Positions 279-29,724 of a stretch of 64,000 nt of DNA are shown piece after piece. Position 1 is the stretch's first letter; every line of letters starts with the position of its first letter. The position numbers were made by a program, and so were the translations under genes. Below the pieces are notes generated by a model. It saw only the letters and a program-made list of their open reading frames with translations, searched no databases and had not been told where the DNA came from. The DNA comes from Marinitoga aeolica (GTDB taxonomy: Bacteria; Thermotogota; Thermotogae; Petrotogales; Petrotogaceae), in contig NZ_CP069362.1 of assembly GCF_029910535.1 (NCBI RefSeq), forward strand, positions 806,001-870,000, read 5' to 3'.

Positions 279-1046
279 TCAATCTCTTCCTATATAATCG
301 AACAATGGCGAAGATGCTTCTGCCACCTCTTTTTCTTCGGGCATTCCTGATAGATATGCAAGTCTCCCAGCTTCAGCAGCAAGAGAAAAAGCCTTTACCA
401 TCTTGACAGGATCATCTGCTATCGAAACTGCTGTGTTTGCAAGAACAGCATGACATCCTGTTTCCATAGCCTCTGCTACATGTGATGGTTTCCCTATTCC
501 TGCATCTATTATTACCTTCACATCAAATTCGTTTAAAAGAATCTTCACAAGCTCCTTTGTTGCGAATCCCTTATTTGTGCCTATAGGTGATCCCAGTGGC
601 ATTAATACCTCTGCACCATTTTCTATCATTTTTCGTGCATCATATAAATCAGGATACATATAAGGAAATACTTTAAAACCATTTTCAGTTAATAATTTAC
701 ATGCTTTTACAGTTTCCTGATTATCCGGCATTAGATACTTTGAATCGTTTATGATTTCTATTTTTACCCAATCTGTATTCATTAATTCTTTTCCAGCTTT
801 TGCAATTAATAATGCTTCTTCTGCATTTCTTGCTCCAGATGTGTTTACCATTATTTTTTTTACATTAATATAATCCAGGATACTTTCATTCATATTACTA
901 TATGATGCTCTTCTCATTGCAACGGTAACAACTTCAATATTTGCTTCTTCTATAGCTTTTTTCATAATATTATAATCTCGAAATTTTCCAGTACCCATAA
1001 AAAATAGATTATTGATTTCTTCACCGTAAAAATTGATATTAACCAC
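279..1046 (-). CDS. thiG: Thiazole synthase ThiG
   Basis: The protein has 255 residues, normal for ThiG. It makes the thiazole phosphate moiety of thiamine from 1-deoxyxylulose 5-phosphate, dehydroglycine and ThiS thiocarboxylate. The sequence shows the ThiG opening LFFMGTGKF, the central PYMYPDLYDARKM-type stretch, the phosphate-binding LMPLGSPIGTNKG segment and VIIDAGIGKPSHVAEAME. It overlaps thiS by 8 bp and is followed at once by thiH. Expression should fall when thiamine pyrophosphate is abundant, through the upstream riboswitch and terminator. Confidence 0.96.
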   Translation of the reverse strand: MVNINFYGEEINNLFFMGTGKFRDYNIMKKAIEEANIEVVTVAMRRASYSNMNESILDYINVKKIMVNTSGARNAEEALLIAKAGKELMNTDWVKIEIINDSKYLMPDNQETVKACKLLTENGFKVFPYMYPDLYDARKMIENGAEVLMPLGSPIGTNKGFATKELVKILLNEFDVKVIIDAGIGKPSHVAEAMETGCHAVLANTAVSIADDPVKMVKAFSLAAEAGRLAYLSGMPEEKEVAEASSPLFDYIGRD

Positions 1047-1236
1047 CTCCCACTACAGTAATAATCTCAATTTTATCGTTTTTAGATAAATATTGTTCAG
1101 AATAATTTTTTATGGGGATAATTTCTCCGTTTTTTACTACAACAATAGGTTTATCGTTGAAAGAAAATTCTTCAAGTAATTCCTTTAAAGTATTACTTTT
1201 ACACTCTTTTGCTTTACCGTTTATATATACTCTCAA
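1039..1236 (-). CDS. thiS: Sulfur carrier protein ThiS
   Basis: A 65-residue ubiquitin-fold protein ending in Gly-Gly-Gly, the C-terminal tail that is adenylated and thiocarboxylated in ThiS. It opens MRVYINGKAKE and contains the typical LLEEF...PIVVVKNGEII pattern. It donates sulfur to ThiG, whose start codon lies inside the thiS 3' end. It is the first gene after the TPP riboswitch and terminator. No ThiF adenylating enzyme lies in the window, so that partner must be encoded elsewhere. Confidence 0.93.
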   Translation of the reverse strand: MRVYINGKAKECKSNTLKELLEEFSFNDKPIVVVKNGEIIPIKNYSEQYLSKNDKIEIITVVGGG

Positions 1237-1283: not shown

Positions 1284-1299
1284 TGATTTTTATTTTTAT

Positions 1300-1405
1300 C
1301 TCTGCTCCGCTCCTTTCGCTGGTATTAACCAGATCAAGTTGTAAGGGTCAGAGGCTTCCACCTCACTCTCAGCTACGGATTAGTAGCTCCCCTGCGGCTC
1401 TTTTT
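1300..1405 (-). promoter_or_regulatory. TPP riboswitch (THI element) upstream of thiSGH
   Basis: On the minus strand the conserved THI-box pieces occur in order: GGGGAGC, the short stem AGCT...AGCT, CTGAGAGTGAGG, GACCCTTACAACTTGATCTGG and TTAATACCAGCG followed by AAAGGAGCGG. These match the thiamine-pyrophosphate aptamer. The terminator 20-40 bases downstream and thiS further on indicate transcriptional attenuation of thiamine synthesis. Confidence 0.95.
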
Positions 1406-4084: not shown

Positions 4085-4579
4085 TTACAGACCTTTTAAT
4101 TCTGTTTTTGTGGTTTCACTAGTTACCGTTTTATAAAATAATTGATCAATACTCCTATCAACAGTTTTCATAGTGCCATCATCATAAATTTCTTTCTCTT
4201 CTACCCAGTATTTATAATAGTATCTAGTATGAGCAGTTTTTTTATATAAGTACCAACCATAATATGGGGGAATTGATACATTATATGTTCTTGTAATTTC
4301 TGTTGAATCCTCCCTTTTTGAACCTAATCCTAATTTACCCAAAATATCTATACTTAGCGACCAACTCCAGGAATTCGTTAACTTAATTGAATAATTAAAA
4401 TTTTCAGATATCGAACTTCTATTTTCCTCACCAGTTACATATTCCCATGCTGTTTCACCTAATTTTGAACTATTTAAATAAGAATAATGATATTCAGTAA
4501 CTGTCTTTAAGATATTTGCTGCATTTAAGCTTGTTACAAATAACACTATTAACACAATAAAAATATACCACTTTTTCAT
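4085..4579 (-). CDS. Small exported protein with amphipathic beta pattern
   Basis: 164 residues from the second of two close ATGs (4579), which is better spaced from GGAGGG than the first (4585). Residues 1-20 form a signal peptide ending near LNA-AN. The mature part alternates Ser/Thr with hydrophobic residues (SISENFNYSIKLTNSW, then TEITRTYNVSIPPYYGWYLY) and is rich in Tyr and Trp. That pattern is seen in small secreted pore-forming or adhesive proteins, but no family is recognised. Its promoter has a 15-T spacer and a long palindrome upstream, and CTGGCGCCAG lies about 31 bp before the start. Confidence 0.7.
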   Translation of the reverse strand: MKKWYIFIVLIVLFVTSLNAANILKTVTEYHYSYLNSSKLGETAWEYVTGEENRSSISENFNYSIKLTNSWSWSLSIDILGKLGLGSKREDSTEITRTYNVSIPPYYGWYLYKKTAHTRYYYKYWVEEKEIYDDGTMKTVDRSIDQLFYKTVTSETTKTELKGL

Positions 4580-4610
4580 TACCATCCCTCCAATATATTT
4601 TTTTAAATAA

Positions 4611-4620
4611 CTGGCGCCAG
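4611..4620. promoter_or_regulatory. CTGGCGCCAG palindrome in the 5' leader
   Basis: A perfect 10-bp GC-rich palindrome 31 bp upstream of the start of the exported protein gene. Similar GGCGCC-centred palindromes occur at 62282-62293 and 63071-63082, the latter also about 28 bp before a small exported protein. A protein binding site or RNA hairpin is possible; the role is unknown. Confidence 0.45.
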
Positions 4621-4646
4621 CAAAAATATTAATTTATTCATCTATT

Positions 4647-4674
4647 ATTTTATCAAAAAAAAAAAAAAAGTAAA
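4647..4674 (-). promoter_or_regulatory. Promoter with a 15-T spacer tract
   Basis: On the minus strand TTTACT is followed by a run of 15 T (complement of A at 4655-4669) and then GATAAAAT. The layout matches the promoters at 33336-33364 and 62182-62211, where TTGACT, a 14-T run and TATAAT appear. It would drive the exported protein gene at 4085-4579. Confidence 0.6.
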
Positions 4675-4731
4675 CAAAAGCGCAGTAAATTTGCTGTTAA
4701 TTTTATATTTCTAAAATTTGATAAATTTACC

Positions 4732-4761
4732 CAATTAATATATCATATGATATATTAATTG
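4732..4761. promoter_or_regulatory. Perfect 30-bp palindrome containing two TGATATATTAATT half-sites
   Basis: The two arms are exact reverse complements centred on CAT|ATG at 4746/4747, each arm containing AATTAATATATCA. The half-site recurs at 13991, 29759, 33277, 58216 and 62124. It lies 57-58 bp upstream of the T-tract promoter and is a strong candidate for a dimeric regulator's binding site. Confidence 0.6.
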
Positions 4762-4793
4762 AGTTAAAATATTATTATATATAAATAACAAAA

Positions 4794-4818
4794 AATCTCC
4801 CGCACGAAGCGGGAGATT
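4794..4818 (-). terminator. Terminator of the damaged TPP riboswitch
   Basis: Stem AATCTCCCGC / GCGGGAGATT followed by T-rich sequence on the minus strand. It is the counterpart of the stem at 1261-1283, with one base pair changed on both sides (T-A to C-G), so pairing is kept. Confidence 0.75.
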
Positions 4819-4828
4819 ATTTTTATTT

Positions 4829-4905
4829 TTATCTCCGCACCTTTCGATGGTATTAACCAGATCAAGTTGTAAGGGTCAGAGGCTTCCACCTCACTCTCAG
4901 TTACA
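4829..4905 (-). promoter_or_regulatory. Second, truncated TPP riboswitch
   Basis: On the minus strand CTGAGAGTGAGGTGGAAGCC, GACCCTTACAACTTGATCTGG and TTAATACCA are identical to the thi riboswitch at 1300-1405. The 5' GGGGAGC segment and the AGCT stem are missing and replaced by CACCTCCTGTAA, so the aptamer is probably inactive. No thiamine gene follows. The next genes downstream are the exported protein at 4085-4579 and the IS110 remnant. The stretch 4586-4956 otherwise holds the palindrome and promoter listed separately. Confidence 0.8.
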
Positions 4906-4956
4906 GGAGGTGAATTTTTATATATCTTAAGTGGATGAAAATTCTGTATCAACAAT

Positions 4957-5961
4957 CTATTTTAGTTTATATATTTTAAAATCATAATTCTCATATGGTT
5001 TCCCATTATAAATAAGATATTCCTCATTATTAATTTTTACCAATCTTTCTGGATAATTTTCTTCATTATATTTATATTTTATATATTCTTCTTTTTTATT
5101 TCTTATATCAAATAACAATAAATTTTCATTTTTTGAGTTTTTTAATTGAACTATAAAATATATTTTTTTATCAATTATTCCTATTGATTTTATACTATGA
5201 AATAAAACTTCATGATCGCTATCATTTGGTTTAAATTTCCCGCTTGTTTTAAATTTATATCCCGGTAATGAGTATAATTTTTTAAGTTCTCTATCTTTTA
5301 AAAGATATATATTGTAAATGTCATTTTCGATATTATGCGTGAAAACATATATTTCATCTTTATCCTTAAATAAATTACGTATTATTTCATGACTTTTTAC
5401 TAATATGTTGTTCTCTAATTTTTCTCCATTATAATTTAATCTGTATATATAATACTCTGGTCTATTATAAACAGGAAAATCCATACTTATAAATTCATTT
5501 TTATTGATTTTTATAAATTTACCATTTGCTGTATTTTTTTTATTAGATTCATACATCATCTTTTCTATTAGTTTTCCATTTTTGTCATACATATATATTC
5601 CATCTGGAGTTTTTAAATATAGATTTTCTTTTTCAACTATCATTTCAAGATCATTGATATCTATTTTCTCTTCAATTTCTGAAAAGGTTTCTAATTTTTT
5701 AGAAAATATATTTGTTTTTAAATAATATGTTTTTTTATAATTTAGCGATGGATCTTGATCTTCAACTATAGCATAAATATTCCCAGATTCATCAACTATA
5801 CTATTTATCAACACCAGCTTTTTATCAAATAAATATTTTTTATTTGCATATTTACTTATGTCAAGATCATTAATGTTGATAGTTTTAAATAAAAATAATC
5901 CCTGGCTATATAATGTAATAGTTAAAAATGCTATTAAAATACCTGTAATATACTTTTTCAT
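4957..5961 (-). CDS. Exported propeller-like protein, paralogue of 10772-11827
   Basis: 334 residues from the ATG at 5961, chosen because GGGAGG lies 8 bp upstream; an upstream in-frame ATG at 6027 lies inside the preceding gene. Residues 1-18 form a signal peptide. The rest is strand-rich and resembles a beta propeller. The segment EIYVFTHN...LYSLPGYKFKTSGKF aligns clearly with DVYVFCHD...IYTIYGNKFKSSGYY in the 10772 gene, so both share an ancestor. No catalytic motif is recognised. The stop codon lies about 50 bp from the truncated TPP riboswitch. Confidence 0.7.
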   Translation of the reverse strand: MKKYITGILIAFLTITLYSQGLFLFKTININDLDISKYANKKYLFDKKLVLINSIVDESGNIYAIVEDQDPSLNYKKTYYLKTNIFSKKLETFSEIEEKIDINDLEMIVEKENLYLKTPDGIYMYDKNGKLIEKMMYESNKKNTANGKFIKINKNEFISMDFPVYNRPEYYIYRLNYNGEKLENNILVKSHEIIRNLFKDKDEIYVFTHNIENDIYNIYLLKDRELKKLYSLPGYKFKTSGKFKPNDSDHEVLFHSIKSIGIIDKKIYFIVQLKNSKNENLLLFDIRNKKEEYIKYKYNEENYPERLVKINNEEYLIYNGKPYENYDFKIYKLK

Positions 5962-29381: not shown

Positions 29382-29404
29382 CCTATTTGAAATAAAATTA
29401 ATTA

Positions 29405-29575
29405 TTCCAAACGGCTCTCCGCATGTAATATGCGACAGTTATACAGGTCTTTCCTGCATAACCAGGCATGTAAGGTGGGTAAGCCTTACATCCTTCGGCA
29501 ACCTCGCCTTTCATCTATCCCGAGCCTACCCTGGCGATAGATAGATTACTCATCTTGGCTGCGCCTCCGTTTGAT
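29405..29575 (-). promoter_or_regulatory. Lysine riboswitch (L-box)
   Basis: The minus strand carries the L-box order: closing stem AAACGG/CCGTTT (29567-29572 with 29408-29413), GGAGGCGCAGCCAAGATGAG, TAA, GGATAGATGAAAGGCGAGG, TTGCCGAAGGATGTAAGG, then CATGCGGAGAGCCG. Several long helices (ATCTATC/GATAGAT, ATGTAAGG/CCTTACAT, GCAGGAA/TTCCTGC) form the known five-way junction. It controls the NhaC-family transporter. The surrounding 635-bp gap holds the promoters of the transporter and of the divergent ars-type operon. Confidence 0.92.
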
Positions 29576-29724
29576 TTAAAAATTATTAAATTTTTCTTGG
29601 AGTTTACCATAATTAAATTTCTTAAATATTTCCATAAAATAAAAAACAAAATAAGACTAATATAAGATTTCAAAATATTTATCCCCCTGAAATATATTTA
29701 ACATAAATATCATTTTTCTAAATT

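Follow-up and report, generated by a model that had tools for sequence, protein, structure and literature searches.

The 64,000 nucleotides of the genome of the heat-loving bacterium Marinitoga aeolica analyzed here (the window from here on) contain two sequences related to the TPP riboswitch, and only one of them stands before thiamine genes. What, then, is the other one? The first is the intact riboswitch of the thi operon (1294-1403, minus strand; Rfam RF00059, 75.9 bits), with its terminator, recognized by pattern and folding, at 1260-1284 on the same strand, followed by the first genes of the operon (279-1236, minus strand), thiS (1039-1236) and thiG (279-1046), assigned by the Pfam families ThiS and ThiG. 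The second, at 4790-4904 on the minus strand, was delimited by blastn and Rfam and comprises a remnant of the P3 3' strand, J3-2, P3a, P4/P5, the P1 3' strand, a linker and a terminator. The two are homologous, with 91% identity in blastn between the second copy and the leader at 1294-1403 (E value 3e-43). They share orientation, a similar linker and terminator, and a core of 53 nucleotides running from CTGAGAG to TTAATACCA that matches exactly (minus strand, 4848-4900 in the second copy, 1320-1372 in the intact one), just as the original prediction for this locus had described. The second copy differs in lacking the thi promoter and the 5' strands of P1, P2 and P3, in having no thiamine gene downstream, and in its score against RF00059, 28.8 bits over 4820-4915 when the gathering score is 54.3. 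The covariance model does not, therefore, score it as an intact aptamer, and we refer to it as the relic.

The original prediction also held that the 5' part of the aptamer was gone. This is correct for the 5' strands of P2 and P3, which are deleted, but the P3 3' strand survives, changed from GTAGC to GTAAC. Helix P2 (GGGG...ACCC) has its positions flagged as unpaired in the Rfam alignment and most of the P3 hairpin is missing. The conserved UGAGA of J3-2 is preserved within a CTGAGAG that is the same as in the intact copy, and the pyrophosphate-sensor helices P4/P5 are present with their junction, one P5 pair having been lost by the change of CCAGCG to CCATCG. According to excerpts of PMC3764141, solved TPP riboswitches hold the pyrimidine ring of the ligand in the J3-2 T-loop, and this binding is stabilised by the P2 pair G18-C48 and by G19. 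J3-2 is intact in the relic, yet G18 and G19 would fall on the P2 5' strand, which has been deleted. Folding provided no substitute for P2 or P3, the fused 5' sequence pairing elsewhere and differently in M. aeolica and in its sister species (G000 and G006 of the seven Marinitoga genomes that we compared). Set against those excerpts, the deletion of the P2 residues together with the lack of a substitute fold leads us to expect that the relic would be unable to bind TPP in the manner of the family.

It could be argued that the relic is a working switch of a non-canonical kind, in which a new aptamer or a new regulatory hairpin forms by pairing of the core with the fused 5' sequence UUCACCUCC. 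The minimum-energy fold in M. aeolica does pair UUCACCUC with the P3a strand, and the sister species folds a 5' hairpin too. However, the same 5' strand finds different partners in the two species, so the hairpin is not conserved. Besides, P2 and P3 are missing, the score is far under the cut-off and a pattern scan of the region found promoter-like matches on the relic only at chance level (6 against 5.2 expected). We consider such a switch extremely improbable. Other Rfam families at this position (RefA9, Flavi_ISFV_CRE, STnc230, Phe_leader) gave sub-threshold matches only and were discarded. Coding was discarded as well, the 63-aa ORF that crosses the relic (4955-4764) being in a frame that stops early in the sister species.

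The truncation junction (4901-4920, minus strand) is the same in the sister genome. What lies 5' of it is not the thi promoter but the end of a gene, c8 (ORF at 6027-4957, minus strand, no Pfam match over the scanned 4957-5961), so that a co-directional gene ends about 50 bases ahead of the relic, and transcripts of this gene would reach the relic's terminator. The orthologous copy in the sister species aligns over 155 of the 156 nucleotides of the query with 91% identity (E value 2e-58), which rules out chance, and scores 35.7 bits against RF00059; M. aeolica has a linker from aptamer to terminator that is shorter by a few bases. On the other side, the relic is followed by an AT-rich element (4586-4793, minus strand) that we call elem, identified by sequence comparison and pattern, which comes after TPP-derived sequence at several loci. 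Then comes a gene for a protein of 166 aa with a signal-peptide-like start (4085-4585, minus strand) and no Pfam match. As predicted, no thiamine gene follows.

Did one stand here once? This was one of the two histories contemplated in the original prediction, and a search in the relatives does not bear it out. The same 166-aa gene is found in Marinitoga lauensis LG1 (G003), in G005 and in the sister species, and in none of the three is there a thiamine gene between the site and it. A leader copy precedes it in two of them, the same truncated relic in the sister species and, in M. lauensis, a near-intact leader with its promoter (70.0 bits, one G short in P2); in G005 (contig C23) no leader was seen before it. 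The near-intact leader at the orthologous place of M. lauensis is what a leader of a former thiamine gene might have left, but the gene after it codes for the same secreted protein as in the window. In addition, the relic has CCCTTACAAC, as do the thi leaders of its own clade; M. lauensis and G005 have CCCTTATAAC or CCCTCATAAC. This sharing fits a relic copied from the neighbouring thi leader and argues against a leader inherited with a gene of its own, a disfavoured reading to which we give a low probability.

The part of the relic that is in good condition is the terminator (4794-4818, minus strand, recognized by pattern and folding), with a stem of 10 bp, six of them GC, a loop of 5 nt and a U tract. 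The pattern scan at the relic gave two terminator-like sites, one per strand on the same stem, when 0.1 were expected. With a co-directional gene ahead of it (ORF 6027-4957, minus), it has the build of an intrinsic (Rho-independent) terminator; anatomically it is no different from others, and is unusual only in descending from the expression platform of a riboswitch. The predicted energy is -17.3 kcal/mol, compared with -15.8 for the thi copy. One pair of the stem changes from U-A in the thi copy to C-G in the relic, as had been noticed, and is U-G in the orthologous relic; letters that do not pair at this position would lower the predicted stability to between -10.7 and -13.0 kcal/mol. The suggestion that the C-G copy came from another functional locus is weakened by this intermediate: since the sister species has the same junction with U-G, the C-G most simply arose after a truncation common to both species, and the change could have gone by way of a wobble. 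A covariation involving three strands, the antiterminator and both terminator arms, seemed probable from the window by itself, but we rejected it, as the sister genome shows that a small deletion and not substitutions produced GCGGAGAT.

Is the stem still under selection? Across 15 copies of the terminator (7 distinct sequences) all 63 of 63 cells were paired, although two of the rows (G005 C18 and G004 C43) are without recognised leader sequence alongside and may not derive from TPP leaders. Left out of this count were G001 C10, which has lost the 3' arm, the copy at 82.6 kb of G006 C53, where the terminator is absent, and three pattern matches in G005 C12 with other loops. The pairing makes selection plausible, as originally proposed, but leaves it unproven, the lone double-changed pair being equalled in 223 of 500 shuffles, so that the covariation is not significant.

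Substitutions between M. aeolica and its sister species numbered 2 in 58 positions of the relic core, 2 in 23 of the terminator (one in the loop, one in the stem), 22 in 203 of elem, 3 in 501 of the 166-aa gene and 13 in 443 at the end of c8, the difference between core and elem not being significant (p = 0.12). The 32 bases between core and terminator align poorly, with 9 mismatches and 6 gap columns. The decay of the sensor is clearest in the structure, namely in the truncation, in two broken P3a pairs in the sister species and in one broken P5 pair in M. aeolica. The terminator does not appear specially protected relative to the core, a point in favour of plain junk, that is, a truncated duplicate with no selection on either aptamer or terminator, whose terminator is still sound simply because it has had little time to decay. 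The covariation result is compatible with this too, as are G001 and the copy at 82.6 kb of G006 C53, where the terminator has been lost or broken. Against it, the truncation is older than the split of the two species, all the stem changes in the counted relics keep the pairing (U-G or C-G), and terminators remain where the aptamers are wholly gone (G000 at 796.6 kb and G006 C40). On balance we find plain junk unlikely.

We are fairly confident instead that the relic arose as a duplicate of the TPP leader of the thi operon, has lost its 5' part and is dead as a sensor, and that its platform now acts as a ligand-independent terminator between the upstream gene and the one at 4585-4085, which has a separate promoter. 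Duplication of a module with the leader at its edge would have spread the leader copies. The truncated duplicate occupies the 3' region of the gene ahead of it (6027-4957, minus strand) and has no convincing promoter itself; its terminator would stop transcription in the cell and be selected for doing so. A permanent terminator was the other half of the original prediction and is the better supported one. Retention of the terminator by selection is likely, albeit not proven. Three leader copies have had theirs lost, broken or replaced. At 82.6 kb of G006 C53 it is lost and the upstream gene is divergent; in G001 C10 it is broken although the upstream gene is co-directional, which counts against the need for a terminator; in G005 C44 another hairpin takes its place. 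The copy at 52.6 kb in the sister species keeps its terminator behind a divergent gene. Nine copies of elem have thi-leader sequence in front, too few to test any dependence on the upstream gene: five sound, one broken and one replaced terminator when it is co-directional, one sound and one lost when it is divergent.

We searched the seven Marinitoga genomes for other copies. RF00059 at E <= 1 gave 19 matches, 14 above the cut-off and five below. Seven of the 14 were thi-type leaders with a terminator of the relic type; the remaining seven, one per genome, were taken for a second leader type, with a different terminator in the four of the seven that were read. Four of the five below the cut-off were decayed thi leaders, two in M. 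aeolica (810.8 kb, the relic itself, and 801.7 kb) and two in the sister species (C54 57.2 kb and C53 82.6 kb). The fifth (G001:C3:6782, 18.2 bits) resembles repetitive coding sequence and was put down to chance. The terminator pattern, with one mismatch at most, occurs four times in M. aeolica, never outside a 14.3-kb stretch around the thi operon, while the reversed pattern used as control gave none in each of the seven genomes. Ordered by decay, the copies go from intact or near-intact (two in M. lauensis) through 5'-truncated (the relics of M. aeolica and its sister species) and P4/P5 plus terminator (M. aeolica at 801.7 kb) to a terminator with little else (G006 at 52.6 kb, G000 at 796.6 kb, G006 C40) and finally to one with the terminator broken as well (G001). 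The riboswitch thus decays stepwise across related species, the sensor being lost and the terminator mostly kept. Among the papers listed in literature searches, none dealt, by its title or abstract, with TPP riboswitches in decay or with the thi leaders of Marinitoga.

Around the thi operon, copies in every stage of decay mark the boundaries between gene modules, and this arrangement, with the loss of thi between two copies, is a more interesting result than the relic itself. On the minus strand of the M. aeolica genome the order is c8, relic, elem, 166-aa gene, c1, c9, intact leader and thi operon. In the operon thiC, like thiS and thiG, was assigned by Pfam, and two further genes are presumably thiH and thiD. 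After it come one gene, a second relic, elem, the broken start of a C39-peptidase gene, Lnt-like pieces, c13, c2, c18 and a terminator-only relic. M. lauensis has leader, elem, 166-aa gene, c1, c9 (split), an intact leader (80.0 bits) and elem, and then the C39 peptidase, a Lnt-like CN hydrolase, c13, c2 (split) and an outer membrane efflux protein (c18), the array ending in a scar that holds only the promoter side of a leader. Ahead of its second leader, 1500 bases match those before the thi leader of M. aeolica by 88.6%, and the sequence behind it matches that behind the second M. aeolica relic by 72.9% (310 alignment columns) and the 52.6-kb copy of the sister species by 89.6% (over 366). 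The stretch absent between these matched flanks, about 5.6 kb, holds the thi operon. The operon is thus missing exactly between two leader copies, and an intact orphan riboswitch is left before the C39-peptidase gene.

ThiC is present in four of the seven genomes (G000, G002, G005, G006) and was not found in G001, in M. lauensis (87% complete) or in G004. In a genome of another genus of the same family (G007) the thi operon has the same gene order and is preceded by a leader, which makes loss in M. lauensis the simpler reading. Recombination between the two leader copies would have removed the operon and would explain the joint. In G001 C10 and G005 C44 scars of the leader separate elem from the end of a c18-like gene, and the sister species has two thi operons (L026 and L028), each adjoining similar modules. 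We tentatively propose, as an idea with somewhat less than even chances, that the thi TPP leader of Marinitoga is the repeated border of a modular array, in which blocks for secretion and secreted proteins and the thi operon are each bounded by a leader. Recombination between copies would add or remove blocks, and in M. lauensis it would have placed an intact riboswitch before the C39-peptidase, Lnt-like and outer-membrane efflux genes, possibly now under TPP control. This suggests that a regulatory leader may serve as a homology arm, with a vitamin pathway being lost and the genes behind the switch rewired. The two orphan leaders of M. lauensis (G003 C11:127937 and 130977) share with the relic the leader family and elem, and the first one also the 166-aa gene. 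Unlike the relic, they have full aptamers (70.0 and 80.0 bits, the first with one G less in P2) and a promoter, and they may still bind TPP. If they do, this would be an example from nature of unrelated genes having captured a riboswitch.

The module at L027 13300-18464 of M. lauensis looks like a peptide-secretion island, with the C39 peptidase, the Lnt-like CN hydrolase, the outer membrane efflux protein and a protein containing LTDDEMKNIIG, which we take to resemble a leader of the double-glycine type. The 166-aa protein was found only within the genus among the 31 genomes searched, the gene being full-length in four of them (M. aeolica, M. lauensis, G005 and the sister species) with partial matches in G004 (two) and G005 (one more). 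Ahead of it, elem has a promoter-like site, TTTACT-polyT-GATAAAAT (TTTACT-polyT-TAAAAT), at 4674-4647 on the minus strand, with a tract of 15 T (the A run at 4655-4669). The tract measures 8, 10, 12, 13, 13, 14, 15, 15, 16 and 17 in ten copies of elem from Marinitoga genomes, and slippage of this spacer could toggle the genes for secreted proteins by phase variation. Also in elem is a 28-bp palindrome, AATTAATATATCATATGATATATTAATT (4733-4760), possibly an operator, and short matches to its centre recur on both strands at several loci of the genus. Before the second relic (L025 13700-13850) there is a promoter-like TTGACA...TATAAT with the palindrome ATTCACTCAGTGAAT, and the same combination appears behind the terminator-only copies at 796.6 kb in M. 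aeolica and in C40 of the sister species. Elsewhere in the window, a lysine riboswitch scores above its cut-off (29404-29577, minus strand, 105 bits).
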